Source: Nereocystis luetkeana (lineage: Eukaryota; Sar; Phaeophyceae; Laminariales; Laminariaceae). Taken from it: a stretch of DNA of 64,000 nucleotides. The notes under the pieces were generated by a model. It ran no database searches. It had not been told where the DNA came from and saw nothing but the letters and a program-made list of their open reading frames with translations. Positions 6,302 through 57,330 of this stretch are shown in pieces. Each line of letters starts with the position of its first letter. Positions within the stretch are counted from its first letter, which is position 1. A program made the position numbers and the translations under genes. The stretch spans positions 9,086,388-9,150,387 of the forward strand of contig JARUPZ010000008.1 in NCBI GenBank assembly GCA_031213475.1, written 5' to 3'.

Positions 6302-6417
6302 TATTACGGGGGGCCATAGTTAACAGGACCTATGGTATACATAAAAACCTACCAGGTATATGTTTAACCATTTTTACTAACAATATTTGGTCCTGTTAAC
6401 TATGGCCCCCCGTAATA
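6302..6417. mobile_element. MITE family M1, intact, with CCAGG micro-insertion
   Basis: Complete arms, flanked by TA. At 6350-6358 the core has TACCAGGTA where sister copies (for example 8733-8841) have a plain TA, a 7-bp gain with TA duplication. Confidence 0.9.
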
Positions 6418-6481
6418 GGTCTCTCCCGTAATACATACCAGGTATATGGTATATTACAGGTATTGTACCAGGCATATATAT

Positions 6482-6820
6482 GCCGGCGTCCCCGGTGGCT
6501 TGGTAGGTCGTCCGCGTGCCTGTCAATATCAATTTCGTGGGTTCAAGTCTCACCGAGTGCATGCTCGTAGGGGTCTTTTCTTGCAAAAAAGAAATTGATT
6601 AGCCGAAAGCGCGAGAGCGTGAGTTACCTGACATTCGATGAAAATCGACGAGCAGCAGTGGGAATGAATGCTGAACCCTATCTATGCGCGACGAAAAATA
6701 AAGGCACGCACCGGGGGGGAGAAGGGTGGACACCTGTGACCACGGCTTGTCCAGAAGCCTCGTATGGGTAAAACCTCCCATGAGTAAGGCTGGAAGGTAA
6801 AAGTGATGTTGAAGAAAAAA
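6482..6820 (+). mobile_element. tRNA-derived SINE S1
   Basis: Head carries pol III box A-like GGTGGCTTGGTAGGTCGTCC and box B-like GGGTTCAAGTCTCACC. In the sister copy the box starts are 44 bp apart, as in tRNA genes. The body shares CGAAAGCGCGAGAGCGTGAG and TTCGATGAAAATCGACGAGC with that copy (52587-52912), and the end is GGAAGGTAAAAGTGATGTTG with an A-rich tail. It has ATCTAT where the sister has AT in 'CCCTATGCGCG', a TA-TC-TA micro-insertion. Confidence 0.85.
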
Positions 6821-6821
6821 T

Positions 6822-6904
6822 ATATATATACCAGGTATATATACCAGGTATATATATATACCTGGTATATACGTACTACATATATACCTGGTATATACGT
6901 ACTG
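6822..6904. repeat. AT-rich cluster of TACCAGGTA/TACCTGGTA motifs
   Basis: Four copies of TACCWGGTA in about 70 bp, in both orientations, embedded in TATATA. It forms a large imperfect palindrome. Confidence 0.8.
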
Positions 6905-6942
6905 TAGCATCTTCGGGCTTGGGTTAGTTCACCTCCCGAATT

Positions 6943-7192
6943 GCGCGTTCTACGATAGAGGTAGCGTGTTTCCGCTATTTTTTTTGTTGATGACGTGCTT
7001 CCTTAACCCTAAATCGTCGGAAAAATGACGTTTTCGAAAAATGACGTTTTCGTGTGCATTGGCCCATGGGAGTGTTCATCGAGTCGCAGTTTGATTTCCG
7101 CTGAAGTCAGTTTTCGGGTGAGGTATACGGAGCTCCTTAAGCGAGGAGCGTCAGAAACATTAGGGCGAACCTCTATCGTAGAACGCCTCTGC
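6943..7192. mobile_element. TIR element M4 (about 250 bp)
   Basis: GCGTTCTACGATAGAGGTAG at the left and GCGAACCTCTATCGTAGAAC at the right. Inside, the 15-bp string AAAATGACGTTTTCG is tandemly doubled. Same internal order as 5781-6052. Confidence 0.85.
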
Positions 7193-7432
7193 GGGGCCCG
7201 TAAATAGGTTTAAATGGTATTTTTAGTTTGGAAGTGGTTAAAAAAAGAAAAACGTACCGTACATGTCTGGTATGAATTATTCACAGCAGTGTTTTTCTCC
7301 TTTTTTTTGCTTCTGCCGGATTAGTCGTGCTTAGAGGCTTGCCAGAGGTATTTTTTCTGCCTTCTCATACTGTTTTAGTACTGGAACCACACGTGGTGCC
7401 AAGACATTTTCGCCTCTCCATACTGGATGTCC

Positions 7433-7793
7433 TATTACGGGGGGCCATAGTAAGGGTCATTCTCATCGGAGAGCTTTTTTCTCCAAATTTTCGACATTTT
7501 TTTCGCGCAATTTTTCAATCTTCCATATTTTCCTGTTTTTTTTTTTTCCAAATATTGGAATGTTAACGAACTTGATATTTTTGCTTCTGAAGAATTTCAC
7601 GAATAGTGACAGAACGCCTCCGTATATTGATACATATCTCCAATTATTTCCAAACTTTGGAATTTTTGGAAAAAACGCTCTTCGATTAGAATGAAGCCTA
7701 AATAGGACAAAATATTGTGAGTAAAAATAGGCAAATACATACCTGGTAGCTTTTAGTGCGCACCTTAGGCCCTATTTACTATGGTCCCCCGTG
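7433..7793. mobile_element. MITE family M1 split by M3
   Basis: Left arm TATTACGGGGGGCCATAGTA and right arm CCCTATTTACTATGGTCC belong to one M1 copy interrupted by an M3 element. It also carries TACCTGGTA at 7740-7748 where other copies read CATAGG or CATCG. Confidence 0.85.
7454..7698. mobile_element. MITE family M3, PIF/Harbinger-like, inserted in M1
   Basis: 245 bp; left end GGGTCATTCTCATCGGAGAG, right end CTCTTCGATTAGAATGAAGC then C. Target duplication TAA at 7451-7453 and 7699-7701; removing the element restores the M1 sequence AGTAAATAGGAC. A TWA target and GG-start termini are the known PIF/Harbinger signature. Confidence 0.85.
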
Positions 7794-8028
7794 TCAGATA
7801 TATTTCTTGGCGCGCCTCGCATAGATTAGATAGGCGGCTCGAGCGAGCACCAAAATAGGCGCACAATTCGACGCAATGAGTCGACGAGGGAGGAGGAAGA
7901 AAAGGCCGGAGATGTTTTCTATCGCAGCGATAGATACAACAGTAGCAAGGGCTATAGAAGCGTAGGGGGAGGAGGAGAGCTTCCTATGTATGTGCAACCT
8001 CGGATCTGAATTACCACCACTACGATGA

Positions 8029-8706: not shown

Positions 8707-8732
8707 GTAATCGACCCTTTTCACCTATATAC

Positions 8733-8841
8733 TATTACGGGGGACCATAGTTAACAGGACCTATGGTATACATAAAAACCTATATGTTTAACCATTTTTA
8801 CTGACAATATTTGGTCCTGTTAACTATGGCCCCCCGTAATA
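8733..8841. mobile_element. MITE family M1, intact (reference copy)
   Basis: GTTAACAGGACC subtype with plain ACCTATATGTTTAACC core. It serves here as the empty-site reference for the TACCAGGTA gains at 6350 and 51505. Confidence 0.9.
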
Positions 8842-9064
8842 AGTAGAGGTAGAGGTATTGTTATACCTTCCCACCGCTCTCGATCGTAGAGGGGAAAGGG
8901 CAGAAACATTGTAGAGGCGACGAGGTATAACGCTACACAGTGGGTTTTGCAAGTATTTGCTTGTAAGGGAGAAATAAGTAAGTAAGCCACAATCAGATCA
9001 ACGCAGGGTGCAAACGGGTATACCGGGCAAAGGGAGCTTGCAGCGCCTTGGGTCGGTTTGTATC

Positions 9065-9528: not shown

Positions 9529-9555
9529 GGCTCTCCTCCATGTCGGGGAACAAAC

Positions 9556-9676
9556 TATTACGGAGGGCCATAGTAAACAGGACCAAATATTGTGGGTAAA
9601 AATAGGGAAATATACTCGTATACCGGTAGGGTTTTGTGTATACCGTAGATTCTACTTACTATGGTCCTCCGAAATA
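9556..9676. mobile_element. MITE family M1
   Basis: GTAAACAGGACC subtype. It contains ACTCGTATACCGGTAGG where others read ATATAGG, a variant of the TA-flanked micro-insertion. Confidence 0.85.
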
Positions 9677-10510: not shown

Positions 10511-12360
10511 TCCAAAAATTCAGGAACCGATCAACCATCTTCGGACAAGAGCTAAAAAAGAGATGTGCATTCCTTCGGGGAGGGCCAACGTTTCTAAAGT
10601 TGGAAACTCGAAAACGCTTCCCCCCCTCTCTCCTTTGCCCCCTGCCCCCCCCCCCCCCCCCCAAGCACGACGCAAAACAAATCTAGGTGATATACATATA
10701 TTATATATGGAAACAACGTGATCAGTAGCGCCCCAGCTGTTGTTCGAGGTGTCTCTATCGTAAGGAGTGAGCAGAAACGGTGCTAATTCTCGGAAGAAGG
10801 GAGAATCTAACAGCAAAAAAAAAAAATCACGAGATTCGCGACTTTTGGGCATGACAAAAAGATCACGATCCATGACATTTCGGTTCTTCTAACGAAAACA
10901 GCTGAAAAGCGTCATGTTTTTTCGTGATATTTCTCCCAACAACAAAAAAAAAAATCCCGACATTCAAAAGCAACGATTTTCGCCGGTGGAGCCAACTGTC
11001 GCGAGTGGGGCGCGGTCAGACGAAATCGATTTTAGCCGAATGAGCCTGTGGCCCGGCCCGTGATACGTTGGAACCACACGGGCCGAAGCCCGACGCTGCC
11101 TGCGAGATTTCCAATCTCACCGACCGTCGGCCTATACCCCGGTCCCGGGGTTCCATCTGGCAGGCCGCCTGCCGGGCCTGGCCTGTGACATTTCTCAGGT
11201 CATTTCTACTTTTGTCTCCGAAATGTGGCTCCTCCTCCTCCTCCTCCTCCTCCTCCTCCTCCTCCTCCTCCTCCTCCTCCTCCTCATTCCTCCTCGAAAT
11301 TTGGAGGCGGGTGAAGGAAGGCTCATAACCTCGAGGGTCATGACCTGAAGGAATAATGCATGTTGAGGCTCTGTCTTCTATGAGAAGAGATGCAGAGGCG
11401 GCACCGAAGTGTCTGTGAAGATCACTTGTGATGAAGAAAGAAGATGGTTTGAAATTGCCGCTTAATTGGCCATTATAGAAGGAATCTTGATCCCAGAGAT
11501 CAAGAGGAGAAGAGGAAAGGAGAAGAAGAGAGGAAAGGAAAGGAAGAAGAGGAGAAATGGAAAAAGAGTGAGCAATGTGGGGCATGCCATCACCTGATCA
11601 CGAGACAATGCCCATGCTACGGGCAGGTTTATTCTACAGCGGCCCGTCAAGGTTCCGTGAACCGTTCCTAGCAATGTCCCTGCAACGTTCTATGTAGCGT
11701 ACTCGTAACGTTCTATGGAATGCTACCTGCTACCTATTGTGGTAGACTATAGCTATACCCTGCGTTACGATCAGTATGATAGATAAGTTGAATACAGTGC
11801 GTCGGCAAGAAAGAACAAACTCAAGTTTCGCCGCACATCGTATTTCTCCGCATCTATCATAAGATACTCTTTGTAAGCTCGCGTGAAGTGACTGCACATC
11901 ACAATAGATATGGATGTCAACGTCCATATATTGGCTGACAGCGGGCGCCCAGCGGCGGTGTCTTTGGGTATAGCCGCCCGTTCGTTGTCCACAAGCGGCG
12001 TGCGAAGCAGAGTCTGCCATGCCCCCATACCCGGCCTTCGGGTACCGTTGGTCCGCGTGGGTTGCGTATAGTGCCTCGATCAGGCGTGTTTGGAGACACG
12101 ACGAATGTCACGAATCGCGATTTTGTTCTTTTTTTTTAGGGGAAATCTAGGAAAAATGGCGTCACGAATCGTGATTTTATTATGTTCGTTAGGAATGGCC
12201 CTAACACGAGCAACAAGCACATGAGTAGTACCCCCCCCCCCCCCCCGCCCCGATCTCCCCCAGCACGACAAGGAATGCGATAAATACTCCGCACACAGAA
12301 TATACTTGTAGTATATCATATATATATACATACCAGGTATGTATTTACTTCGACATAAGT
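10511..12360. other. No gene seen; TCC tract and C-runs
   Basis: Contains a C-run (10647-10662), a 60-bp TCC tract (11226-11287) and a purine-rich block (11500-11570). Around 12160-12260 a short string ACGAATCGCGATTTTGTT is repeated 55 bp apart. Open frames here are driven by these tracts. Confidence 0.5.
11226..11287. repeat. (TCC)n microsatellite
   Basis: About 20 uninterrupted CTC/TCC triplets. Confidence 0.95.
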
Positions 12361-14644: not shown

Positions 14645-14781
14645 TATTTCGGGGGGCCATATGAAATAGTACCTCACGGCACAGACAAACACCTACTGCC
14701 TACCAGGTATACATTTCGCTATTTTTACCAACAATATTTTGGTCCTATTTACTACTGCAGCAGTATAGGTCCCCCGTAATA
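14645..14781. mobile_element. MITE family M1 with two micro-insertions
   Basis: TATTTCGGGGGGCCATATGA left. TACCAGGTA lies at 14701-14709 in the core. The right arm reads TACTACTGCAGCAGTATAGG where the family has TACTATGG, a second TA-bounded gain of about 12 bp. Both gains are within one 137-bp element. Confidence 0.85.
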
Positions 14782-14908: not shown

Positions 14909-16300
14909 CCGAAGACGGAAAATAAATAATTACCTCTATTTCCAGTACGAAATAATTTAATAGAAACCGAGATCAATTTATTTAATTGTTTTGGTCAGAT
15001 AGCAGTGGTAGGAACTCATGATGAGCTGTCTCTACGAGCCGTGTGCACAAAAACCGTTCATTGTTGTTGCGTGTGGTCTAAATCTCACGGGAATAGTTAG
15101 CGACGAAATACCTTGGCGGTGCTGGGATTCAGAGGGCATGTATTATATGCTAGCGACAGTAGTACGGCCAACGATATACCAGGTAGATAAATAGTAGTAG
15201 TAGCAGAAAATAAATTTTGTATACCAGGTATACCAGGTATAGACCTACGATAAGAAACAACAACAAACTAACTGCGGAGAGAGCGTGAACAATGCAGACA
15301 AATAAATCAGAAGTTTGTGCTTCACCGCAGAACAATAAGTAACAAGTCTAAGAAAACAAGGTTGCCGTTCTGGCTCATACAAGCAACAACGTGAGCAGCA
15401 ACCGGGGCAATAAATGGTCATTATGATTTCCCTTGCCATCCGACAATGTGCAGCATGTTCGTCACCTCACAGGCAACGGTATAGCCCAGACTGCATGTGG
15501 CAGTCTATGGATGAATGTTTCAGGTCATGTATTATTGGCCTCCAACAAGGTAAGGGCACATAAGAAGTGAGCCTCCTGCGTCACCGCTTACAACCTCAGA
15601 TGTCAAGAGGCACATGATCCACAACAGGCAATGGCACCAAAACCGGTACGTAACTGTCATTTAAAGAGACCAAACGAACACAGCATGATATAATAGTAAA
15701 ATAATGCTTCTTTGGCATTTTTTTTTTTTTTCCGCCATTCTATCATACATACAAAGTATGACAAGCCAGACAGGAAATCGAAATGGTTGAAAGCGAAACA
15801 AAGCATATGCCCGGTACCAGGGACAGCCAAGACTACTTTTCCTCGTGCCAATGTGGCCTGTGTTTCTCTCCCAATGATCGCCTCGCACGACTACAGGAGG
15901 TCTACCCAAAACTGTTCATCGTGCCGATGAAAAAAAGTGGCCGTCGGAAGCAGTCCGGTAATTCATCACCGAGGTGTCACTGGCAATCAGATCTACAAAA
16001 AATAGCAGCTGCTGTTGCTGTTGCTGGGCCAGCCAAAAGCTTGTACCCTTCCTCCCCCCCTCCCCCCTCCGCCGTGGCTACTTACTAAGTACCTCAAAAA
16101 TTCCCCCATCCCCGGAAAATACCATCACAAATTCTTCCTACACACACAGACTCTTGCGGGAAATCCACACTACTTCGTACCTGGTACGACCGATTGCAGT
16201 ACGTCTGTTCGACTGTACGTCGTACGACCGAAACACACACACCACCCACGAGGCCGGACCGTGAGTTGTTCCGCGGCAAACCGGGTTTCAGATCTCACAT
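14909..16300. other. No gene seen; one LINE-tail scrap
   Basis: A short minus-strand LINE tail is at 15425-15460 (CCCTTGCCATCCGACAATGT). Three TACCAGGTA motifs lie at 15177-15240. No convincing coding or RNA feature. Confidence 0.5.
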
Positions 16301-16800: not shown

Positions 16801-17225
16801 TCGCGTTGCGCGTGGCAGACGAGGTGCGTGGGGGGTATGTCTTCCGACCCTAGCCCCCCTGCACCGCATGCCATCGGCCTCGACACATCCAAGGTGGGAC
16901 GAGGACAAGGACGAGGACGAGAGTGCAACGAGACGCACGGACGAAACAACAACGAACAAATTCAACACAAGTCAACTCGAACTCAATTTCAACTCCGACA
17001 AAACACCAGAAGGCACGGCCGGGAAACATTGCCACCAAATCAAACGGGTGGGGACGATAACAAAAAAAAAAAATGAACAACACACAAACATCATCGTTTT
17101 TGTTTCGGCCAACGCAACAAATACTATTCTTATACTAGCCGGGGATACCACGGGAACACCGAAGTCAAGGGACAGAGGACACCATTAAACAAAGGTAGGT
17201 CTAATAGGGTGTAAAACTCTCTCGA

Positions 17226-17460
17226 TGTACCCGGGTAACTACCTGGGTATGATGTACCTGGGTACCTACCCGGGTACGATGTACCCGGCTACTTACCCGG
17301 GTGTGATGTACCCGGGTGTGATGTACCCGGCTACTTACCCGGGTGTGATGTACCCGGGTGTGATGTACCCGGATATGATGTACCCGGGTATCAACCCTGG
17401 TATGATGTACCCGGCTATCTACCCAGGTATGATGCACCCGGGTATCTAACCTGGTATGAC
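17226..17460. repeat. 15-bp minisatellite in the probable 3' UTR of MC5E
   Basis: About 15 imperfect copies of a unit like GATGTACCCGGGTGT, with alternates ending GGCTACTTACCC. The array begins about 55 bp past the epimerase stop on the minus strand, so it probably lies in the transcript's 3' UTR. The unit is a multiple of three, so it reads open on the plus strand as a MYPGV-type repeat, but I see no reason to call that coding. Confidence 0.85.
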
Positions 17461-17514
17461 CCACCCGAGTATGTAAAACAATGTACTCCAAACGAATCCG
17501 TTGCAACAAGTTTT

Positions 17515-17833: not shown

Positions 17834-20800
17834 CTGATCGACCGGACCGGGGAAGGCGTTGCGGCGAAACGGCGGTCAACAAAAGAGCAGAGCAGGGGCC
17901 GTACATGGGCCCGAGAAAAAAATCCCCGATACACTAGTTAGTTTTACGTGCTACACTCGATACAGTTAGTTTGCACCCATTGCGAGCAGGCGCTGCTGTG
18001 CGCCTGATCGGAGAAGGCGGTATCAACGAGGGGCCGCGCGGGATAGAGAAACTACACGTGAAAACAAAATATGTTAACGGTTGTGTTCGATAATGCTCGA
18101 AACTCTTTCGACAGTATTTGAGGCGTTTTTTAGGAGAGCGTAAAAGCTTACGAGGCATAGCTTGGATCCTTCTGGCAATTTTGTTCATTATCGGGTAAGT
18201 ACCGTAACATTCGTTCTTTATTTTGTTTTCATCCGATGAAAAACATGCAAAAAACTGAAAACGTTAAACAGCAGAAAGAATATGAGCCTATTTCGTTAGA
18301 CTACTCAGCACAAGTAGGCGTTATACCTGAGCAGAGGAGGCGGTAGGTATATACACGCCAGGGGAGTCTAGATTTTTAACATACATTCTAGCTCTATATT
18401 TGAGAGAAGCGCCGATAAAAGAAAAAGGCTAAAACGGCTTGGCACACGAGCATGCTGCATTGCAGGAGCTACGCGATACAAATTTCATGCCCGCAGCTAT
18501 CGATAACGATAACGGGGGGACCATATAGTTAATAGGACCTATGGTAAGTAAACATAAACACCTATGTATTAACCATTTTTTACTAAAAATATTTGGTCCT
18601 ATTAACTATGGTCCCCCGAACAAATAACACCTGGTATGATTAATACTACCTTTCAAGACAAGCGGTGTTTTCTCACTTGGTAGAGTTGTCCAGGGTGTTT
18701 TTCTCGAAGAGGTTGTCGGCGCATCCCACGGACATCCTGATGCCGTACTTGTTGTTCTCGAAGACGTTGCCGGAAACGACGGCGTTCAAAGACTCCAGCA
18801 TCGCCATGCCAGCGTCGCCATTGTCGTGTACGTAATTGTCTAGTTTTGCGAAGGATAGCAAAGAAAAAAAAGAAAGAAAAAAAGAAAAGCGGGTGGCGGG
18901 GGGGGGGGGGGGGGGGGGAGTCATCGAGTGAGGGCCGATGGGATAAAAAAAGGGCGGGGGGGAAACAATAAAAGTTCATACAACACACATATATCTGACA
19001 TATGTATCAGATACTTGGTACACACATCTCGCAGATCGGATGCATACCTGACGGTTCACATGGCTGATCAGATACAACCTCTGACGGGAATGCATGCACG
19101 TCTGGCATATCAAATCAGCTCTTTCTCTTCATCTCGAGTTCTACTGTTGTAGATCGTCGTGGGGCGGTAGTGGCGCGTAGTTGCTTTGAGCAAAGGATGG
19201 AAAACAGTGGGGCGAGTGAAGGGTCAATGGGACAAAAAAAGGGGGAATGTATACATATATAATATATTTACTTCGTTATATATACTTCGTATATATAAAA
19301 GTTCACACACACATATCTACCAGATCAGATCCACGTTTCATGATCCACAGATCTGCACGGGAAGGGAGATACATACCTAGTAAATAAATAGGACCCATGG
19401 TACCACAAACACGTTGTCTAGAAAACAGTGGGGTGAGTGAAGGGTCAATGGGACAAAAAAGGAACAATATATATATATACTGGTATATGAATAAAAGTTC
19501 ACACATATCAATACATATCTACCAGATCAGATCCTCGTTTTATGACCTATATACGTGCACGGGGAGAGAGATACATACCAGGTAGTAAATAGGACCTACG
19601 GCACACTTTAAAACCTATATATTTAGCTATTTTTACCGACAATATTTGGTCCTACTTACTGTGGTCCCCCGTAATAGATGACACCCCCCCGCCTGCTCTC
19701 GCTCTTCTTAACGACACCGTAGAACGCCAAAATAGAAAGGATCTGTGGGTGATCTGCTGCTGCCGCAGAAACCTCGTCATCTGTCTGATGCCGCGTGCCG
19801 GTCGATTGGTGCCGAGGGAGACGAAGAAATCGCCACCAGTGGCCTGCTGAAAGTCAACAGCTTCACAAACGAGAGGCCGATACACTTGCACTTCTCTACC
19901 AGGTGTGCTGTCTACTTGGTGTCCGTTTGTTACGCGGGCAAAGCGTCCCGCGTAGTTGTTTGTTTGTTCGTTTGTTTCTTTGTTTTGTTTATTTTTTTCC
20001 TTGATCCGTTTGTGTAGTTTATTTTTCAAAATCTTACTCGGCAGCACAACTACTTTTAACAATCCTCGACCGGCGACCGTTGTGCCTGTCTACAGCCGCG
20101 TGAAACAGGATTTTCATCCCGTCGGAGGTGCGCTAATTTCTACCAGTAGGGCCGGTGCCCCCCAGTCTCGAAAGGGATGCATGCGTGGCCAATGGTCAAA
20201 TGACCGAGGCAAGCAAAATATGAGTACCCTCCCCCTCCCCACATACACAAAGGATACCGACGGATGTCTTAAAAAACGCCTTCCATATAGAGTGAACTCT
20301 TCTTACCCTTGACAATGGCGTCGTCGCTGCTCCGGTGGAGGAAGATGCCGGCAGACGACTCGGCACCGCCGTACACCTCGTTTCCCTGACATACATTGGA
20401 GGGTTTTCCAAGCAAACAGGCGGGTGTGAGGTGTTGTATGGTAAGGGGAGGGAGGGGACGGGTTGGGTTCAAAAGCGGTATGAGGCGGGAGCGGGGGAGG
20501 GTGGCAGGGGGTGGAAAGGGAGGGGGAGGGGGGTTTATTTTCAGGAACGTAGGGGCGGGGGGGGGGGGGGGGGGGGGGGGGGTACTCGTGCCATGCACAC
20601 CAGGGTGTTGATGTTGTGCCATGCATGGCCGTAGTCGTATGAGATCATAGATCCTGGCATCCCTGAAATGCCGGGATGGAGCGACGTCGGGTTCTCGTTG
20701 ACCAGGCAGGCATTGCTTGCACCAATAGGAGGCTGCGGACGGACGATTGCGAGGGATCATGGCGATCAGAACCCGCCGAAACGCCTCCAGGAACCATGTT

Positions 20801-21629
20801 TTTCGACCGCGTTTGACTCTCTGATTCAAGTGTTTTACCCCGTGAAAACTGCTCCAGTTTTGTACTACAGACAGTACTTCAACACTGCGTGAACGAGGAA
20901 AAAAAAAAAAAACCCTTGCCGAACAAGTCGTGCTCGTCTACCTGGATGGACACGCCGTTGCAGCGCTTGGAGGCGATGATGCCGTGGTACCCGTTGTTGT
21001 AGACGGTGTTGTCGTGGATGGTCAAGAAGTCGCTGTCGTCGTGGGGGTCGAACCCGTAGCCCGAGTTGTCGTGCATCTTGTTCCTCCTCCAGTCTCCCTT
21101 CTCGTGGCCGTACGTGTACACTCCGAAACGGTTGTGGTGAATGTCCGAGTTGTAGATGTTGCCGTACACGTTGACCTCGTCGAACACTTCCGGGTTGCTC
21201 TTGTCCTTGCAGAAGCCTCGGACCTGGACCGGTTCAGATAGGTTGAGCGCCGGTAGGATGTAGTGAAAAACACAACACAAACAAAAAAACACGGGAGAGC
21301 TGTGTGACATGACACTATCGCGGATTTCCTCTCGAAACCGTCATCCTTGCTCAAAAGAGCGGCGCATGATACCTCGATCGCGCCTTGCTCTGTTAATGGT
21401 ATCAGGAAGCGCCTTACTTACATCACATCTTGAAGGATGGACAATACATGTATGTGTATTCTGTATTTGGCGGGAACACATATCTGACAGCGGTCGAACG
21501 AAGGGGTGTGGGTGTGGGGTGCGCGTGCACGCACGTTGAGGGCACTGCCTGCGCTTTCGGCGACGGATCTCAGAGAATAGCATGAGTAATGACGGCGGAT
21601 AGAGAAAACTTGCTGAACTTACTGTAAGA

Positions 21630-21680: not shown

Positions 21681-24600
21681 GGGGGGGGGGGGGGGGTTGT
21701 CGGGCAGACGGCAGCAGTATAGCGAGCAACGAGGAAGAAGACCAGGAGCGTAAAATCGTTACTTACTATTCCTTTTTATTTCTCCTCCTCCCACGGGTGA
21801 GAGAAAGAGAGAGTAGGCGAACGCGGGGGGCGGGGACGATGCAAGGGTCGAGTCGAACCTCGCTGGTCGGGGCGGGTATCGGAGACCGGACTCGATCCTT
21901 CACGATAATTTGAAAAGCCTCCTGACCCAACCCGACCCGACCCGTGGGGTTGTGGGGGCCATGACCCGTAAAGAGCCCTGGATTTTTTTTCGGAGGCATT
22001 CGTGTAGACGGGCGCCGGCGGGGAACAGTGGGCATATACCCCCCCCCCCCCCCCCCCCCCCCCACTTTCCCCCGTTTTCGTTTTCGTTTTCCGGGATACA
22101 CTCTAATGACGAAGGGAAAATGCGTCATGAAGCAGAGAGTAATACACTACATACGCCCCTCTGTCGGATATGCTACGTGCTGGCTGCAGACCGGCCCACC
22201 GTGCTTGCGCCGGGCCATCCAACAGCGGGTCGGATTCAGCGCCCGAAGGCTAAACCGTGTGTTGTGTAAGAGTTGAGTGAGGCTATAAAAAGTACCATCC
22301 CTCACACACGCTGGACGAATTTTATCCGCGAGGATGCTTCCTAAAAAAATCAAAAGAAATCGGCTTCGTAATGGAAGTGGCACCCGCGGCGGAAATGGTG
22401 CCTGGTACGCAAGAGAGCTTTAGGGGGAGATATCGCCGTTGTCTATGGGAAAAAAATGCCCCCGAGGCGCTGTCCACCATTGTCATCCAAGTCAATCAAT
22501 GCAGAATCTCTGTAGCGTAGGCTTGTGGCGACATAATTCTGTCATGGAAATGGAACTTGCATCTCTTCTATATAGGATGCGAGAATCGGCACGGACAGTG
22601 GTTGTTGTGCTGGATATCGGTCGACGGGTAGAGATAACGGTTGAAACGTCAAGGACACACACAGACAAGTCGGTTATCCTCCCCTGCGGACAATCAGTAT
22701 TAGAGTCTTGGCGAGCTGTGTAATAATACTGCGCAGAAGGCATGTATATATATACTTGTATATATATATTTCTTTGACTTACCTTCCAAGTGAGCCCGTA
22801 GGCCTCGCTCCCTTGGTACCCGAGGTAAGCCATCTCGCTGTCCTCGATGTCCATCCTTGCCTCGCCCATCTCCGTCTTGGCCCTGCCTTCGCAATTCTGG
22901 GTGTCGTCGGTGATGATCTCCGAGACGGCGCTGATGTACGACCGGCCGTCGGTCTCGTCTTCGTCGGGGGCATTGGTGGAGGTGTCCCACGAGGTTACCT
23001 GACAGGCCGTCGTACGTGGACGGTGTACGCCATAGGTTAGGTGCTGCACGTAGAGGTACACATTGCTGCTGTGTAGGTTGGGTGCAGCAGCAGCTCAACG
23101 TTGACGCCGCCGAAAGCCGCCAGAAATAAGAGACACAAGAGAGGAGATAATACTATGATCGTGTATAGATAAAGCGTAGAAGGAAGCAGACATAGAAAGC
23201 ACTGCTGCTGTGGGTTTCTTTTTGTTTCCGGGGGTTTCTTCTTTCAGTCGGGAGAAATCAACGCTGAGGCTCGTGCTGCACGTTGTCGGATGCCAAGGGA
23301 AACGACAATGATAACAATAATGATATAGCTGCTGTCGCGTACATACATGTCTCTAAGCCTCATGCCTGTCTTCTCTGTCTCCTCTTCTCCATAACGGTAC
23401 TGTTATTTAGAACTCTATATGTCCCGCCCGCGTTTTTGGAGATACGTACGTAAGTCAGAACAAACGTAGGTACCGCCCTACGGCTGTAGGTTCGTGTTGA
23501 CAGCAGCAGTAGTAGTGACGCAACTCTCACCCACACCCGTCCTCGAGCAATGCAGCAATTCCGTTTCGAGGGCAAACCGCACCCTTTTAGGGAAGCAGTC
23601 CCGTATTCGTGACAATGTACTTGGAATTTGAGTGGTTTGCCCCCAAAACAAAAACTGCAGTCCTAAAAGGCTCGAGCCGTGTGCTTCGACCTACTGTCGA
23701 ATATGATGTGTACAGACAACCGGTGAGCTCTACTATTATATTATGGGGGACCACAGTAAATAGGACCAGATGCTGTTATTACGGGGGACCATATTAAATA
23801 GAGGACATACGGTACACACAAAACACCCAGATATATTTCGCAATTTTTAATATTAATTAACAATGCTTGGTCCTATTTACTATGGTTCCCCGTAATATAT
23901 AGTAAAAATAGCGAATACTCCGTATAAAGGATTTTATGTGTACCATACCTGGTAGGTCCTATTTTTTAATTTTTAATCTTCAACATCACTTTCACTTGCC
24001 AGCCCTACTCGTGGGAGGTTTTACCCATACGAGGCTTCTGGACAAGCCGTGGTCACAGATAGATGTCGTCCCATCTCCCCCCCCCGGTACGTGCCTTTAT
24101 TGTTAGTCGCGCATAGGGTTCAGCATCCCCACTGCTGCTCGTCGATTTTCATCGACCTACCAGGCCACCGGGGACCTATTTATTATGGCCCTCTGTAGTA
24201 TACCTGTGGTACATGAGTACCGGTATGCGCCAGTCAACAACACACAGCGGCAACCGGCACTATAGAGGGACCACAGCAGCAGCAGTAGCATTGGTACTCG
24301 TACACCTGAACCACACACACACGTACACGTGCAAGGGTGTATAGGTGGAAAGTGAAATTATCAAAGCGCCAATCAGTCTTTTTACCTTGGTGCCCATGAA
24401 GTCCAAGCTACCGCCGTGAGCGCGCAGGTTGATGAATCCCTCTGCCGTGCTCAGAAGGCGCAGCTCGTCCGCGTCGCCGCCGGCCGAGGTGCCGTAGACC
24501 TGGACACAGAAAGCGAGGGGGGGGGAGGGATGGGGGGGAGGGGGGGGCGAATTGATGTTGAAATGTACGGAACGACTGTCAAAATACGATGCGCTTCGAA

Positions 24601-28875: not shown

Positions 28876-28975
28876 TTACGGGGGACCATAGTAAAATATA
28901 GGACCAAATATTGCGAGTAAAAAAAGGTACCAGGTAGGCACATATTTATATATACCTGGTACCTTTTGGTCTGCA
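28876..28975. mobile_element. MITE family M1 fragment with two CCWGG gains
   Basis: TTACGGGGGACCATAGTAAA left and the AGGACCAAATATTGCGAGTA core. TACCAGGTA (28928-28936) and TACCTGGTA (28953-28961) both lie in the next 35 bp. The right arm is not recognisable. Confidence 0.7.
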
Positions 28976-33133: not shown

Positions 33134-33138
33134 AGGAC

Positions 33139-35550: not shown

Positions 35551-35659
35551 TATTACGGGGGACCATAGTTAATAGGACCAAATATTGTGAGTAAAAATGG
35601 TTAAATATATAGGTTTTTATGTGTACCATAGGTCCTATTAACTATGGTCCCCCGTAATA
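35551..35659. mobile_element. MITE family M1, intact, inserted in the copia element
   Basis: Perfect-looking arms TTACGGGGGACCATAGTTAA and mirror, flanked by TA on both sides. As it lies in a young copia copy, M1 was active recently. Confidence 0.92.
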
Positions 35660-37444
35660 GTACGAGGTCTAATCCGAACACGGATGACACTTTCGACAGC
35701 TCACTCACTCCCAACCAACTCCTCTACCTTGCAAAGGGAGAACCACGGATCAAGACCATGGGCATGCGCGAGGATTTTGCCCACATCGAGGGAGATCCAT
35801 TCCTGTCGTACAAGGCTTTTACGTGCGCCACTTCTAACCCAGACGACAAACGGTTCTCGGAGGAGGTGAAACGAGTACTTCAAACTCCTCGCACGCATAA
35901 TGATGCTATCAACTCACCGGAGCACAAGGAGTGGAAAGCCGCTATCGACAAGGAGATGAATAGTCTCAAGGAACATCAAGTGTACGAGTAGGTTCCAATC
36001 ACCAGCGTACCCAAGGACAACAAAATCATCGGATCCCGACTTGTCCTCAAGCAAAAGACGGACGGTCGGTTCAAAGCTCGGCTCGTCGTTCAAGGATATG
36101 TCCAGGAGCCAGGCATCGACTACGGGAAGTCATACGCGCCAGTGTGTCGTGTCGGAAGCATCCGCATGCTACTGGCAATCGCATGCGAACATGGATGGCC
36201 GGTATGGCAGCTGGACGCGCAAGTGGCCTTTCTACAGTCTAAGATCGAAGGGCGCGCTGTTTACGTCAAAGTCGCCCCAGGACAAGACGCCAAGGACCCC
36301 AAGACCGGTGAGCCAAAGGTCTACAAATTGAAGAGAAGTCTTTACGGCTTAGCGCTATCACCTGTCCTGTGGTACGACACGATCAACGCAGAGATGCTGA
36401 CAGTTGGCTTCACACCCACGCAATCTGATCCCTGCGTTTACACGCGCGGAAGCGGGGACACCCTTGTGATCATGACCCTGTATGTTGACGACATACTGAT
36501 CACTGGAAAGGACGAGAGCGTAGTGAGACACTTGAAAAAGGCTCTCACTGACCGCTTTGCTATGTCTGACATGGGAGAAGTCAGCCTTATTCTTGGCATG
36601 ACAGTCACTCGTGACTATGACCTAGGGACTTTGTCCATCACACAGAAAGACTACGTCGAAAACATCCTCGAGAGGTTTGGGATGGAGGAGTGCAACCCTG
36701 TACACACGCCGGGATATGGATCGGAGCTTTCGAACGAACAACCGGAGGAGACGCTGCTAGGCGCAACAGCTACGAAACTCTATCAAGCCATCGTGGGATC
36801 TGTGCTATACTTGACGCAGTGTACCCGCTACGACATGTGCTACTCGGTCAACCAGCTCACCAGGGCGTGCAGCAAGCCGGCGCAAGCACACATGACTGCA
36901 GCCAAGCATGCCCTGAGGTACCTCAAAGGTCACCCTGACTTGCCCATCACGTTCAAGAAAGGGCAATTTCGACTACATGGGTTTACAGACGCTTCCTTCG
37001 GTGCAAACCCCGACACGCGCAAGTCGACTACGGGATCGATTTCTTTCTTGAATGGAGGACCCATTGGCTTCGGTTCAAAGACTCAATCAATAGTATCCCT
37101 GTCTACCGTCGAGTCTGAACTCAACGCACTAAGCTACGGAGCCAAGGAAGCAGACAGTGTATCTGTCAAACTTCCCCAAGGAACTAACGTCCAAGAACTT
37201 CAACTCCGTACCGACCAGCTGCGACAGCACGGGAGCTCTAACGGTTGCGGGCAATTCAACCTATACGGCAAGGACTAAGCACATAGCACTACGCTTCTTC
37301 TTCATCAGGGAGCTGGTCAAGGAAGAAAGGATCACACTCCACTACGTTCCAACTGGGAAAATGCTGGCAGACTGCGCAACCAACCATCTAGCAAAGATCC
37401 AGTTCAAAAATATCCTTCTTCAAATCAAAGAATTTTCGGGATAA
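35660..37444 (+). pseudogene. Copia reverse transcriptase/RNase H remnant
   Basis: Clear Ty1/copia-type RT (region with YVDD) followed by RNase H with the copia-type TKHIALR box near its end. Fossil, not intact. Confidence 0.9.
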
Positions 37445-37909
37445 CTTGAAAAGGAGGGTTTCCTAAACATTTCAGTACGACAAGATCGGCTCACGACTGC
37501 ACGAACTTCAGGCTGATGGGAGGCGGACGCGTCACGTGGGCGCCTTCAATAGGGAAAGAGGACCATAGGTGATGTCTATCGAGCTGTAATATAATGCTGA
37601 CAGAGTCCACTGGTGTTCCTTTGTTTTGGGGAAGGTCAGGAACACTAGGCGGCTATTCATTTCTATGCTCTTTGCGAAATGAATAGATACACTGTATGAT
37701 AGACAATTACCTCGTGTAAGATACTCATTTCTGTTCATTTATTTGTTTGCCTTCTTTTGGGTATCACACAGTAGCATAATGAGTTGGCTCTGAGTAACAA
37801 ATGCAGAGCATTTTCCCCGCAACAACTATCATCGTTGTTGTGTGCATTTTTGGAATTATGGCATGTAACGCAGAAGTAGACTAAGCAGTATTACCCTAAC
37901 GAGGGGACG

Positions 37910-38643
37910 TATTGGAGACGATACTTGTAAGTAACCATCTGTCGTTACTTGATAATACATAGTCATCTGGTATACATAGCGTAACATACGCACCACAAGC
38001 AGCCTTGTTTGACGTGTATCGTATTGTTGCTGTAGTTACTTTAAGTAGTACGTACGTAGCTTGAATGTGTGACAAACAACAGTTTACAAGCTGTGCCGTT
38101 ACTGATATGTGATAAAGTGTATGTACTGTATCGTACGTACGGAAGTACATGTATGTGTACATGTAGCGGGACTGTCATATCCAGTATCCCTCTTAGAACC
38201 GGTAAGGTTCGGGATTTGCCACAGGGTACTGATTTGAGCGCACCCTAGCAGTTGAGTTGTTGGAGTAACAATATTGGCTACCGGCTAGGGTCATGGATTG
38301 ATTGGGGTGGCATCTTTTCTGTTTTTGTTATTTTTGTTGCAAGCGCAAGCACGCATCGCCCCCCCCCACATGAGCTCACTCTACATCATCTGCTCATCAT
38401 GATCAGCTTCCAGCTGAGCAATCAATCAACACTGGCCAGGAGTCGCCAACAACATCTCTTTATCTTACAAGGGATTACACAACACATACAAGTTTGCTTA
38501 ACGGCAGCTTAAGCGTTTGCCCTCTCCAGATTGTGTCTTATCGGCCATCGATAAGCGGATCTGAGCGTATACCAGCCACGAGCTGACACACGCTACGCGT
38601 ACACCAGCTTCGAGCTGACACACGCGAACCACATTGTTTAAGA
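37910..38643 (+). repeat. Right LTR of the copia element
   Basis: About 734 bp, matching the left LTR throughout. A purine-rich AAAAGGAGGG lies upstream near 37449, and about 460 bp of untranslated sequence separates RNase H from this LTR. Confidence 0.88.
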
Positions 38644-40947: not shown

Positions 40948-41065
40948 ATAACTCAGACTGGAAAACTGTCTGTTGTACATAGAATGCGGATATGTATACC
41001 AGATGACGTTCGTAAGTGTAATTGAGTAACGAATATGATGGTTACTGACAAGTATCATCTCTAAT
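40948..41065 (+). repeat. Interspersed repeat R2
   Basis: Sister of 8029-8178; CTATAACTCAGACTGGAAAA through to GACAAGTATCATCTCTAA. It carries the shorter states at the TA positions where the other copy is longer. Confidence 0.75.
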
Positions 41066-41068
41066 ATA

Positions 41069-41245: not shown

Positions 41246-41579
41246 ATAGTAGTACTAATAGTAGTATAATAGTAGCAAAACAGCAGCAGTTCGCACCTGC
41301 TCGGACAAATCATGACCTATATACGGTACACAGTATACTGTAGTACTAAAAAGTACTATTAATACTACTACTGTAGACCATATTCAACATCCACAACAAC
41401 AACAACAGTTAGTTATAGTACACTTCACCTGCCGTGGGAGAGGTTGTTGTGCAGGGTCTATATGCATACATACAATACATACATACCAGGGTATGTATAT
41501 ATATATGGTATGTATATATATTATATAGACATATATATAGGTACAGATCCTACAGCAGTACTATTAATACTTACTTACT

Positions 41580-41698
41580 GTTACGGGGGACCATAGTGAA
41601 TAAGACCCATCTATGGTATACATAAACACCTACCAGACATATATTTAACCAGTTTTACTATCAATATTTGGTCCTATTAACTATGGTCCCCCGTAATA
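41580..41698. mobile_element. MITE family M1
   Basis: TTACGGGGGACCATAGTGAA left, ACTATGGTCCCCCGTAATA right. The core has ACCTACCAGACATATATTT, which looks like a decayed TACCAGGTA. GACCCATCTATGG shows an extra CATC against GACCTATGG. Confidence 0.88.
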
Positions 41699-42239
41699 AT
41701 AAGGTGTTGTGTATAGATCACACCACGGAATACACTACTACTACTCGTAGTCCCACCCAACACCATCAATCATGACGATTAACTAAAAACCGCCTAAAAT
41801 GAATTAAGCCCCAACGCGTAGTAGTAGTAGGCTTGACCATGACTTACTACTGCATCGAGCGAGCCCCGCGGACAGACAGGCCAAACCATTTTTAACCTTT
41901 ACCTGTTCGGTTTTTGTTACCCAGTGAGCTCGTGCGAGCCCCACACCCCACGCTAGTACCCGGAGGAGATGTGACTACCGGTGGCTATCTCCGCCGCACG
42001 CGACCTGCCCACCTGTCGGGGGCGAGGTCGGGTCGGGTCAACATGACATGCATGTGGTCACGCGCCCGTGGTATACATAGATACCTGTATACGTACGTAC
42101 GAGGTACAGTAGCAGCGGAGACTACGGGTTCAATTGACAGGCGACACGCGTATATTCTTATGAACTAACTAACGTGGAGGTGTACGTAGGGAGAGCTTTA
42201 TTCCCCTAATCACACCCTGGACAAATTAGTCCTTATTTC

Positions 42240-46744: not shown

Positions 46745-47272
46745 TATATATCTGGTATCGATAGGTTGGGTTGGCGTCGGTCGGTAACGACACTGTAAAT
46801 AATGCCACTCACGACGTGCGCTAGACTACCAGGGTACCCTTTGTTTTTTTGCGGTGGCCCACCGCTGGTTTGTCGAGTTAGATCATTTGTGCAAGATAAA
46901 GAAACTTTACTCCGCACAAGGGAATTGATCGTATCACGTAGTGTTCATGGTAAGACACCCAAGGGGCAGTTACATAGTACTCCCATTGCTGTCTTTGGAA
47001 GTGGCTACACAGGAAACCAAATTACCTCATTGAAGCGGTCATCCATATGCAAGTCCGCCTCACCAGCGGTTCTTAGTAGGATGCAGCCCACCCCTCATGC
47101 GACTCGCCGGACACCTCACGGCGCTTGCGCTTGGTGCGAACAATGTCTGCCTGGTCGGTGAAAAAAACCGACATGGTCCGCCCCGGCTTGTAGAGATGCG
47201 AGGGTCTATGGTCATACGACTCCGGCCATGCATGAGATCGAGTACATCTCTCCTATCGAGTACCCCCCCCCC
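46745..47272 (+). repeat. C-tailed repeat R1, nearly full, inside LINE B
   Basis: GGTTGGGTTGGCGTCGGTCG start, TTTACTCCGCACAAGGGAA, GTTACATAGTACTCCCATTG, then GAGATCGAGTACATCTCTCC and a C-run. It keeps ATCACGTAGTGTTC, the empty state for the CCWGG gain at 57117. Confidence 0.8.
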
Positions 47273-50390: not shown

Positions 50391-52139
50391 GTGCTGTGGA
50401 CTGAATGAGATTATCCAAACGGACTTCGGCGATAGGAAAGTAGTCGGAGTTGTCCGCACAATCCATTTCAGATGCCGCCCGAGAAATCAACTGCTCGATT
50501 AATGTCATGGTCGTAGTACCTAATAATTGTAGTATGATAGACACTCCCCAAGGAATTGATACTACTCGTAATTTGGAGCAATATCTTGGGCCTTGCAAAT
50601 GATTGGGTGTACAGAGAAGTTCTCGATCCTGTTGAAGAGGCAATACTAGTATGGCATTGTTGCGTGCTGACCAGATCGACTGCAGTTCTACAAGTAGCTG
50701 CCAGCTTTCAAATAACAAAGCCCTCTGAAAGTCGATACTCACGACAATTCTAGATCATAGTAGATCGCTTCCGAAACCAATTGTCCGGACAATTCCAAAG
50801 AATGGACGGTCTTCCAAAGCAGTTGCCCCGACAAGTCCGACCCGTGTCAATCGCCCGAAATCAATTGTTCAAGCAATTCCTTTTCATAGACAGCCTGTGA
50901 AATGATTTGACGGCACCATTTCAATCAATAGGCACTCTCCGCGATATTTTGTCAGGACACTTTTCATTTGTTCAACAGCACCAAACATCAAATGTTCAGA
51001 CAATGCCAACAAACGGGCAGTCTCTGAAATCAATTGTCAGGACAATTCCAATTGATAGAGAGGGTTCAAACGTATGTGTCCGGACAATTCCAATGGTCTG
51101 ACAGTACCAAATATTACTTGTTCCAAGCATTCCAACTAAGTGTCCCGAGTGAGTTGCCCGAACAAATCCTACTAAATTTAATAGTCAACATCCAAGTTAG
51201 TTGTCTGGACTATTTCAATTGCTATTATTAGCACTTTTTGACATCACTTGCCCGGACATCCCATTCGTAGACAGCTTCGTGACTCTGATGTAGGGGCATT
51301 AGTTTATTGATAGGTCAATTGCTCAAGGCATGAGCAAAAAGGGACGGGACGCCTCGACTTAGGTTTGTATATTATGTCCGTACCTAGGACGTGTTGATAC
51401 CGCCCAACCCGTGTGTTCAGACGTAAATCACTAAAAAAACGTTTCACGAAACAAACTATTACGGGGGACCATAGTTAACAGGACCTATGGTACACGTAAA
51501 AACCTACCAGGTATATGTTTAACCATTTTTACTAACAATATCTGGTCCTGTTAACTATGGCCCCCCGTAATAATCCGTATGCACTGATGTGTTGAAATGC
51601 ACGGGCAATCGATTTAGGAGACTGCCCACCAATGACATTGTGTGAAGAAGTGTTTTAGGAGATTTTGTATTTTGGTTGCGAATGTCCGGATGATTGATTT
51701 TGTAGACTGTCTATTAATTAATTGGAGTTGCCCGGACGACTGATTTAAAGGGCGGTTTCATGATTGAATTTGTCCGGGCAGTTGATTTTGGAAACTGTGT
51801 ACCAGGTATGGATTGGAATTGTCGGATCAGTTGATCTGGGAGACTGTCTATTAATTGGGAATGTCGGGACAATTAATTTGGCGGGAGTCTATTAACTGAA
51901 ATTGTCCGGACAATTAATTCGGGGGTCCGTTTATTAATTGGAATTATCGGGGCAATTGGTGTAGGGGACGGTCTGTTAATTTGGATAGCCGAGACAATTG
52001 ATTTAGGAGACAGTCTAATAATTCAAATTAACTGGACAGTTTATTTAGGAGAAGGTCCATTGATTGGAATTGTCCAGACCATTGACTGCCGAGACTGCCC
52101 ATAAAACGGAGTTGTCCAGACAATAGGGCCAGGTAGGGG
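50391..52139. repeat. 42-bp minisatellite, right blocks with orientation switches
   Basis: A few sense units (50395-50480), then antisense units (about 50760-51270, for example GAAATCAATTGTCAGGACAA), then sense units again (about 51600-52139). A perfect 16-bp palindrome AATTGTCCGGACAATT lies at 51900-51915. 50500-50750 and 51280-51455 do not follow the unit. Confidence 0.75.
51457..51572. mobile_element. MITE family M1 with CCAGG micro-insertion
   Basis: Complete arms; TACCAGGTA at 51505-51513 at the same core position as in 6302-6417. These two copies are therefore probably descended from one mother copy that already had the gain. Confidence 0.9.
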
Positions 52140-53067: not shown

Positions 53068-53110
53068 TGGTAGGTGTTTCTTGTTGTTGGCTAGGCCATA
53101 CTGTACAGTA

Positions 53111-54559: not shown

Positions 54560-55203
54560 TCTATCATATGTTGGTTGGGTTGGCGTCGGTTGGCAACGGC
54601 ATAGTAAAACATGCCGCTCACTATTTGAGCTACTGCTTGAGCTACTGGAAACAACCAGCGTGCTGTTTGAATCGCTTGTTTTGTTTGTTTGTTTGATTGT
54701 TTGTTCGTATGTGTGTTCGTGTGTGTGTTTGTTTGTTTGTTTGTTTGTTTGTTCGTTTATTGTTTCGTCGGTCGGTCACGGCTGGTCGTCGAGTCATAGG
54801 CCATTTGCTCGGGGTGGAGAGCCTTTATTTACTCCGCACAAGGGGAATGATCGTAACGCGTGGTGTTTATGGTGAGGCACGCAAAAGGTGGTAGCTACAC
54901 AGTACTCCCCTTGCTTTCTTCTGGAAGTGGCCACACCGCATACTACACTAATCCACTCAAGCTGTCATCCATGTCCAAGTCCGCCTCACAAGCGGTTCTG
55001 AATAGGATGTCGCTCACCCTTCATGTGATTCGCCGGAAACCTCGCGTTTCTCTTCGCGCTTGGTGCAAGCATTGTCTGCCTGGTCTATGAAATCCCGACA
55101 TGCTCCGTCCCGGCATTGCGGGGATGTGAGGGTCTACGGTCATACGACTACGCCCATGCATGATGTCGAATACACTCCCTCCCGCCCCCCCCTCCCCCCC
55201 CCC
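54560..55203 (+). repeat. C-tailed repeat R1 with a TTTG insertion
   Basis: GGTTGGGTTGGCGTCGGTTG start to GCATGATGTCGAATACACTCC and C-run. A GTTT/TTTG microsatellite (54672-54762) lies between the ACATGCCGCTCACTA and CTGGTCGTCGAG segments and makes this copy longer. Confidence 0.78.
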
Positions 55204-55615
55204 ACCCCCGCGCACATGAGGTCGGAGCGCGCGTATTGCTGCGAGGGGTGGACGAAGTCTCGTGCGTGTTTTGGTGTCCCTTGCGAATCAAGCGCTCCTG
55301 TGCCAGCGAACGGTGTTCGTCCATCGCCGTTTTCGCCGAGCTGACGAGGCCCCGGGGTTCACGCCCCCCCCCCCCCCCCCCTCCCCCGCCATTATGGGTC
55401 AAACTTTTCTTTCAGAATGGGGTCCCTGTTTACTGAAGGCCTGCACTACAGCGTCGGGAGCACCATCATGTAGATACGTTGCATATTGTTATCGTTATTG
55501 TTTAGTGCTTTCCCCCCCGACTTCGACAATGATGTATGGTACACGTTCCATTCCGACGTGAATAGAAACATCTTCAAATATCGCAGTAGTAGATGCCCCT
55601 CTATTATCGTGCTGT

Positions 55616-55710
55616 TGTTGTACGTAGCATGAGCTTCGACGTTAATTCACTCACAAGCACTCCGAAAAAGAACGAAACACACACGCGAGAACCAAAAAGG
55701 AGCCCCACGT
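55616..55710 (-). mobile_element. LINE 3' tail copy, worn
   Basis: GTAGCATGAGCTTCGACGTT, AATTCACTCACAAGCACTCC and GAAAAAGAACGAAACACACA follow the tail of LINE B (43325-43420) with many changes. Confidence 0.55.
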
Positions 55711-55796
55711 ATACGCACAAACAAACGTCTCTTATAATATTCGTTGCGTACCTTCTACCGCGTGTAGGCAACGGGATTGCTCCAGCTCGACCTAGC

Positions 55797-55887
55797 CCTT
55801 TTAAGACCACAGTCCCGTTGTTGGGGACAAACCGGCCATATTCTAAGTAATTAGTCCCCAAAGCGGGACTGCGGCGGCCCTAAAAGT
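55797..55887. mobile_element. MITE family M2
   Basis: CCCTTTTAAGACCACAGTCC left and GCGGGACTGCGGCGGCCC then TAAAAG right. Confidence 0.8.
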
Positions 55888-56361
55888 GTTCATGTTTCCG
55901 TCAACTGTTTGTTGGGCGTGATGACAATACCGAGCTCCTCTACACTATAATCAAAATAGGAGGAACACTACTGTAAGAAAAATAGGTACTGGTAGGTGTG
56001 CCCCCCCCCTGCCGATGGGTCGCGGCAGTGCAGGCAACGACCTCGATTTTTACGAAAAGCGGCGGCGCGAACGGGGCACGGAGAGTACAGGCGAGTACGA
56101 GGGTCGCCGGTCGACTTCGCAGTGGCGAGCTGACAGCCGAAAAATCTCTTGTCGCAGTCTCTTGCTCGCAGGCGGCCAACACACAGCCGTGTGAGTTTGG
56201 GCGGGGGGGCATTTTTGCTTTCAATTTTATGTTTCCCCGTCCCGCCCCTCGTATTTTCCCCCTGCGTACTTCTCCAGCTCTCCAGCCTCCTCGGTGAGTC
56301 GGCTCCGCGGTCACGTACAGCACTACTGGGCGCCCGCAGTTAACAATGACTACGCTATTAA

Positions 56362-56453
56362 CCCTTTGAGGACCGCAGTCCCATTTCGGGGACAACACAG
56401 CTCAAACTCTAGGTTAGTTTGTCCCCCAAAACGGGGCTGCGGTCCTAGAAGGG
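56362..56453. mobile_element. MITE family M2 with TTAA on both sides
   Basis: CCCTTTGAGGACCGCAGTCC left and GGCTGCGGTCCTAGAAGGG right, with TTAA immediately outside both ends (56358-56361, 56454-56457). A TTAA target with CCCTTT termini is the known piggyBac signature. No transposase is present. Confidence 0.85.
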
Positions 56454-56774
56454 TTAAGAGCGCTGTTGATAGGCTCCGATCGGCACGACAAAAAAAGAAA
56501 ATGGGGTTTAGAAAACGCAGCTTGCCCGCGGCAACTACGAAAATAATCTTATACCAGGTACGCTATAATAGAGCCAGATCAAAAAGGTCTCGGAAATAAA
56601 ATATTTTATTCGAGAGCCTGGACACCGTCGCGGGCGGCGCCCCCTCCCCGCCCCCCCCCCCCCCCCGCCCCCTCCCCACTACATTTTTCACGCGAAAGGT
56701 TGAGCACTTTCTTCCCTGCGTACACAAGCTTTGTTAACCCTCTTTTGGCTAGCTTCAGGGTGATAATTTAGGGG

Positions 56775-57330
56775 GAGGGGTGGGTGTACTCGATAGGAGG
56801 AGAGATGTACTCGATCTCGTGCATGGGCGTAGTCGTATGACCATAGACCATCGCGTCCCTACAATGCCGGGGCGGTGGAGCATGTCGGGTTTTTACCGAC
56901 CAGGCAGACATTGCTTGCACCAAGTGCGAACCGCAATGAAGGTGTCCGGCGAGTCGCATGAAGGGTGAGCTGCATCCTACGAAGAACCGCTTGTGAGGCG
57001 GACTTGCGTATGGATGACATTTTGAATGAGTTGATTTTAATTTCCGGTGTAGGCATTTCCAGAGACAGCAATGGGAGTACTATGTAACTGCCTCTTGAGT
57101 GCCTCACCATAAACACTACCAGGTACGTGATACGATCAATTCCCTTGTGCGGAGTAAAGGTTCTCTACCTCGCACAAATGATCTAACTCGACAAACCAGC
57201 TTTGGGGCCACCGCCAAAAAAAAAACAAAAAAAAAACGGTACCCTAGTTGTCTAGCTCACGTCGTGAGCGGCATGTTTTACAGTGTCGTTGCCAACCGAC
57301 AACAACCCAAACTATATAAAACAGGGGGGA
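56775..57330 (-). repeat. C-tailed repeat R1, nearly full, with CCTGG gain
   Basis: On minus it runs from GGTTGTTGTCGGTTGGCAAC to GAGATCGAGTACATCTCTCC. At 57117-57125 it has TACCAGGTA (plus) where the 46745 copy has a plain TA. Confidence 0.8.

Follow-up and report, generated by a model that had tools for sequence, protein, structure and literature searches.

We analysed a 64,000-nt stretch of the genome of the brown alga Nereocystis luetkeana (GenBank assembly GCA_031213475.1, contig JARUPZ010000008.1, positions 9,086,388 to 9,150,387; hereafter the window, whose first letter is position 1) and found that five bases, CCWGG (W being A or T), together with a second TA have been gained recurrently, and in exactly this form, at TA sites, so that TA becomes TA-CCWGG-TA. 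The resulting word, TACCWGGTA, occurs 29 times in the window (18 TACCAGGTA and 11 TACCTGGTA). First- and second-order Markov models predict 0.42 and 0.45 copies, respectively, and 60 simulated windows contained 0.47 copies on average and never more than 3. An initial annotation, made from the letters of this DNA alone, had described the word as recurrent, which is borne out within the window by 29 copies versus about 0.4 expected; its count of more than 20 further copies was likewise correct, as 22 exist beyond the seven it named. We consider it reasonably probable that the copies were left behind by the excision of a transposon that targets TA, has ends of the CCWGG type and is cut with overhangs of 5 nt. 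This transposon would probably be Tc1/mariner-like, or a miniature inverted-repeat transposable element (MITE) mobilised by one.

Gain of CCWGG and TA at single TA sites

Since the 50 one-mismatch variants of TACCWGGTA were seen 18 times against 11.0 expected, a slight excess, the enrichment is almost limited to the exact word. Set against the 29 exact copies, this surplus of seven corresponds, by our own arithmetic on small numbers, to a divergence of about 2.7% per base; by this measure the copies appear young. Among the 16 words of the form TA-XYNY'X'-TA, CCNGG occurred 29 times and GGNCC 8 times, all others at most five times; all eight GGNCC words lie in copies of the MITE M1 (see below) or within 60 bp of them. 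About 25 of the TACCWGGTA copies were judged independent, a density of about 1 per 2.5 kb in the window; the four set by judgement as probably non-independent are 51505 (with 6350) and three that lie in local repeats, 6842, 6885 and 15231. A control of fetched viral and bacterial loci held 27 copies in 201 kb, where 24 were the anchors used for fetching and 3 were others, with about 1.4 expected at the window's background rate (our own arithmetic). The middle base, A or T, had been taken by the initial annotation as a sign of mismatch repair in either direction. This argument fails because TACCAGGTA and TACCTGGTA are reverse complements of each other, so the A/T split gives orientation only.

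We then compared repeat copies with and without the word. The 7 bp were removed from each TACCWGGTA and related copies were sought, under a strict filter that demanded an ungapped alignment within 10 bp, presence of the TA and at least 70% identity. Nine of the 29 sites passed, three of which (6842, 6859 and 12331) were set aside as simple TA-rich sequence. The remaining six (6350, 51505, 7740, 23946, 33189 and 57117) are clean gains with a single TA in the sister copies, and they are spread over three unrelated repeat families: M1, the long terminal repeats (LTRs) of a copia element, and a repeat named R1. The pairs named in the initial annotation for these six sites hold.

M1 is about 110 bp long (TTACGGGGGACCATAGT...ACTATGGTCCCCCGTAA) and appears to duplicate a TA at its target. 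Copies lie at 8732-8842, 6301-6417 and 35551-35660, with about 20 more in the window, and the central TA is an insertion hotspot. From the 26 pieces aligned, three short ones were removed; among the 23 compared, six carry a gain at this same central TA, four with the exact word (one inside a double insert) and two non-canonical, and the nearest other M1 copy is empty there for all six carriers. TACCAGGTA at 6350-6358 (copy 6301-6417) faces one TA at 8781-8782 in its nearest copy (8732-8842, 2.7% apart). The same empty TA faces TACCAGGTA at 51505-51513 (copy 51456-51573), which sits at the same TA as 6350 and may share descent with it. TACCTGGTA at 7740-7748 (copy 7701-7792) corresponds to a TA at 35610-35611 in the sister 35571-35655. 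TACCTGGTA at 23946-23954, in an M1 fragment, corresponds to CCATAGG in the sister 35606-35639, with the TA at 35629-35630.

Other M1 sites are less simple. While 7740 is clean, the second M1 site that had been named alongside it, 14701-14709, turned out to be the latter part of two successive inserts at the central TA, TA-CTGCC-TA-CCAGG-TA (TACTGCCTACCAGGTA, 14694-14709). M1 comparison revealed a degenerate, non-canonical gain, TACCAGACATA, at 41631-41641 at the central TA of copy 41578-41699, and another non-canonical gain at this same TA, TACTCGTA+TACCGGTA, at 9613-9628, where M1 sisters read TATA. At the edge of copy 19583-19676, TACCAGGTA (19576-19584) faces CATAG in the sisters with other differences nearby, so it does not count as a clean gain. 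Word search together with M1 comparison placed TACCAGGTA at 28928-28936 and TACCTGGTA at 28953-28961 in one diverged M1 copy.

The copia element spans 33135-38643 and comprises two LTRs and reverse transcriptase and SH3 domains. Its LTRs align over 33135-33870 and 37905-38643 at 95.8% identity (14 mismatches). TACCTGGTA (33189-33197) is inserted in the 5' LTR only; the 3' LTR has a single TA at 37960-37961. In R1, TACCAGGTA at 57117-57125 is matched by single TAs in the sisters 46879-47000 (TA at 46939-46940) and 5096-5219 (TA at 5158-5159), and a third sister, 54802-54926, reads CA without insert. Among indels of at least 2 bp between repeat copies, 91 sites were not simple sequence, and 7 bp was the commonest length from 5 bp upwards (8 of the 91). 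Five of these eight are exactly the TACCWGGTA-type gain, with 6350 and 51505 possibly one event; the other three are a degenerate form (41631), a part of the 14694 double insert and an unrelated indel.

Target signature, remaining copies and related words

The gains have a symmetric AT-rich target. Outward from the TA, the commonest flank bases on either side are T-A-T-A-T-T-T, and the 25 collapsed sites match this outward consensus at 7.64 of 16 positions (leave-one-out 7.56). All TAs of the window score 4.50 of 16, and in 20,000 random draws of TAs no set attained the mean of the scar sites. When the TAs were chosen to match the scar sites in local GC, the score was 4.74 of 16, and again no set among 5,000 was as high. 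A at the first outward position was found in none of the 50 flanks of collapsed sites, where the GC-matched mean is 10.9. When only the 15 sites outside M1 and the TA-rich cluster were considered, the score was 6.80 versus 4.66, a level reached by 1 of 5,000 sets, and A at the first position was again absent (0 of 30 flanks, 2 of 5,000 sets as low). Symmetric AT-rich flanks of this kind are typical of Tc1/mariner targets.

The remaining copies were located by word search, in part together with tandem-repeat analysis. Three of them (6829, 6842 and 6859) lie in a TA-rich run at 6829-6867 that is partly a tandem duplication. The stretch around 6859 is repeated in tandem as a 26-bp copy, which contains TACCTGGTA at 6885-6893. 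TACCAGGTA was found at 6436-6444, 12331-12339 (in TA-rich DNA), 15177-15185, 25155-25163, 27734-27742, 28432-28440 and 56552-56560, as two abutting copies at 15222-15239, and at 51800-51808 directly before a 42-bp tandem repeat (51812-51957). TACCTGGTA was found at 16178-16186, 25839-25847, 26217-26225, 28327-28335 and 30315-30323.

Two other kinds of word between TAs are also enriched. CTCG/CGAG (TACTCGTA/TACGAGTA) occurs 13 times versus 1.9 expected, with a strand bias of 10:3 (9613, 24295, 25074, 26108 and nine others), and CWG occurs 21 times versus 8.2 expected. Neither was added to the scar set, as they lack the target signature and the strict test gave an empty sister for 0 of 13 and 1 of 21, respectively. 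The single CWG word with an empty sister is at 4745, where TACAGTA stands against TA in the sister 47029-47137, a Sleeping-Beauty-like 5-bp gain. As to fill-in products, none of the four CCWGGCCWGG forms occurs in the window, and TACCGGTA occurs twice. Perfect 4-bp tandem duplications appeared as indels between repeat copies at 12448 (ATGT), 18544 (GTAA), 24057 (AGAT), 38149 (ATGT), 52808 (ACGT) and 54824 (TTTA); they could be due to slippage or to repair of staggered breaks. A tandem array of GATGTACCCGGGTAT-like units at 17224-17476 looks scar-like on the surface but is a separate minisatellite.

Excision as a proposed origin, and its alternatives

In the mechanism we propose, a cut-and-paste transposon whose ends start with CCWGG would enter AT-rich palindromic sites of the TATATA type and duplicate the TA. 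On excision, staggered cuts would strand five terminal bases on each flank, and the facing overhangs, CCAGG/CCAGG or CCTGG/CCTGG, would form G-C pairs everywhere but at the middle one of their five positions. End joining would then seal them and resolve the central A-A or T-T mismatch, leaving TA-CCWGG-TA. With four G-C pairs and one mismatch in facing 5-nt overhangs, joining should be unusually uniform. We infer the donor element, the length and polarity of its overhangs and the repair path; the scars have 5 nt between the TAs, which may be a composite of both ends. Excision, as put forward in the initial annotation, is still the best explanation and gains support from the symmetric AT-rich target. 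The A/T argument is to be dropped, and the abundant donor was not seen in the window.

Sleeping Beauty, to which the word had been likened, makes its first nick three nucleotides inside the element, so that its 3' overhangs come to be 3 nt long and its footprints reproduce them (PMC7827188); a review gives its footprint as C(A/T)GTA and Tc1/mariner overhangs as 2 or 3 nt (PMC3878927). Sleeping Beauty and Frog Prince share with our case the TA target and its duplication, a TA-flanked terminal overhang and one central A/T (PMC3878927, Table 1), but their overhang is 3 nt where the scar is 5 nt, and neither an element with exact CCWGG ends nor, in the frames scanned, a transposase was found in the window. 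Given the norm of 2-3 nt, a 5-nt scar either stretches the analogy or is a composite. One end of Mos1 has a terminal repeat beginning CCAGG. A Mos1-type mariner differs from our case in the position of the nick, which the transposases of Sleeping Beauty and mariner elements place 3 nt inside (PMC7827188). Stowaway/mariner elements in grasses leave short fragments of their terminal inverted repeats between two TAs at empty sites (PMC1925063), and the sites from which the pogo element Passer has excised likewise carry short footprints (PMC9976928). For mPing (PIF/Harbinger), compatible sticky ends lead to precise and uniform non-homologous end joining, much as we propose; however, its overhangs are its 3-bp target site duplication and the site is restored, whereas here five extra bases remain (PMC4561436). 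No CCWGG footprint appeared in the titles or abstract starts among the literature matches listed, and none of the 20 titles listed, out of 217 papers that contain the 9-mer, was about transposons.

Several points weigh against excision by such an element. Overhangs of Tc1/mariner elements measure 2 or 3 nt, not 5 (PMC3878927). Known footprints vary, with fragments of 1-4 bp for Stowaway (PMC1925063) and 0-4 bp for Passer (PMC9976928), whereas here one exact word dominates, and excisions of DNA transposons in rice are mostly imprecise (8 of 94 perfect; PMC4423477). The M1 hotspot does have variants, two of its six gains being non-canonical and a third preceded by another insert. No element with exact CCWGG ends was found in the 64-kb window, in a search limited to such exact ends, and no DDE transposase family was detected in the 93 of 188 window frames scanned (at least 95 residues, low-complexity frames excluded beforehand), where an intron-split gene could escape. 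Scars outnumber elements by at least about 8:1 (25 versus a 95% Poisson ceiling of 3; our own arithmetic). The scar sites also lie in AT-richer DNA (flank GC 0.386 versus 0.463), which is why the signature test was repeated with TAs matched for local GC, and the consensus for the random test was built from the sites themselves, which the leave-one-out score answers partly.

The donor had been expected to be abundant, and this is not what the window holds. With both strands counted, there are 24 TACCWGG half-sites that lack the second TA, versus 15.1 expected. Five of them fall in a single tandem array (17.2-17.5 kb), and outside it any two agree at 14 of their 30 inner bases at most. A 200.2-Mb assembly of Ectocarpus contains 11,912 Mariner-Tc1 copies from 17 families (PMC12477816). 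At such numbers, a single family could easily be missing from 64 kb, and it is the number of scars that surprises. Only tentatively, as a rather unlikely combination, do we suggest a transposon with five-base near-self-complementary overhangs that would excise so cleanly and frequently that its identical scars outnumber its copies many-fold. The surplus may be due to excision that is near-complete, or programmed for a particular phase in the life of the alga.

Two alternatives that retain a transposon, both improbable in our estimation, survive best. According to the first, CCWGG is a composite to which each end contributed 2-3 bases (CCA + GG, for instance). The pieces would have been trimmed before joining, or would have overlapped with a one-base mismatch; the overhangs would be the ordinary 2-3 nt, and the ends would share only CC or CCW. 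Stowaway footprints in grasses do merge fragments of both ends (TACTCC...AGTA and others; PMC1925063), so CCWGG could be such a composite; the published norm of 2-3 nt would be respected (PMC3878927), and ends of this kind would have escaped the half-site search, which was restricted to CCWGG ends. However, such joins should vary, yet a single exact word prevails, with few shortened forms (TACCGGTA 2, TACCAGTA and TACTGGTA 2 each); it is this uniformity that counts against a composite. According to the second, which we hold to be no more probable, the donor belongs to a TA-duplicating superfamily besides Tc1/mariner, for example Mirage-like, ISL2EU-like or undescribed. A gain with TA duplication does not by itself fix the superfamily, and 5 nt falls outside the 2-3 nt of Tc1/mariner (PMC3878927), but a TA target and a quasi-palindromic footprint with central A/T fit Sleeping Beauty and Frog Prince (PMC3878927, Table 1).

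Very unlikely, in our view, is a dedicated process in which an enzyme writes CCWGG+TA (or, read otherwise, ACCWGGT between the T and the A) at TATA-like sites that never held a transposon. It would suit a uniform word, many scars and a donor not seen in 64 kb, yet we know of no such enzyme; a departing transposon classically leaves some of its terminal bases between duplicated TAs, and the M1 hotspot variants (9613, 14694 and 41631) resemble end joining. It is still less probable that TACCWGGTA is ancestral and that the 7 bp were precisely removed from the sister copies. Several diverged M1 copies do bear the insert at one common TA, as such loss would have it; but the word is missing from all three sisters of 57117, and the M1 gain is confined to 6 of 23 copies, with the nearest copy empty for every carrier. 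The two LTRs of one copia element are normally identical at insertion, which argues in the same direction, while an LTR relative without the word (40992-41066) differs there by another 5 bp and gives no clean empty site. Finally, although the word is a short quasi-palindrome and CCWGG is the dcm methylation word, a conserved protein-binding motif or a sequencing or assembly artefact is hardly credible, since a binding motif would not turn up as 7 extra bp, with a duplicated TA, in just one of two paired LTRs, and no adapter or ligation junction known to us gives TACCWGGTA.

Neighbouring features and implications

Telomere-like ACCCTA repeats occur in two nearby blocks (29194-29251 and 29555-29608). 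The copia reverse transcriptase piece has relatives in Ectocarpus sp., the best named one at 58% among the 120 of 518 matches listed; its profile retrieved five bacterial-assembly loci in genome contigs at 34-37% identity, which were of no use. A beta-helix frame at 20882-21340 (minus strand) aligns over 69% of its length with a Laminaria digitata protein, at 84% identity, and has further matches in Ascophyllum, Sphacelaria and Scytosiphon. In viral contigs, a tandem 18-mer gave 7 matches and a TATATA-flanked 17-mer 10, while the M1 22-mer gave none and the copia reverse transcriptase no relative; the scans may omit the genome of the window and its near relatives, so these zeros are uninformative there. 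The M1 pattern had no match in the genome contigs scanned, and Rfam none in the window.

If the pattern extends genome-wide, many of the 7-bp insertions in this lineage, which shift the reading frame, would go back to the excision of one transposon family as a main source, and the scars would record where elements once stood after their departure. Excision as proposed would, if true, mean that transposons targeting TA can have longer overhangs than those known so far, and would suggest that self-annealing overhangs give uniform repair. TACCWGGTA is a short word liable to mislead analyses of indels, homology and motifs in brown algae.

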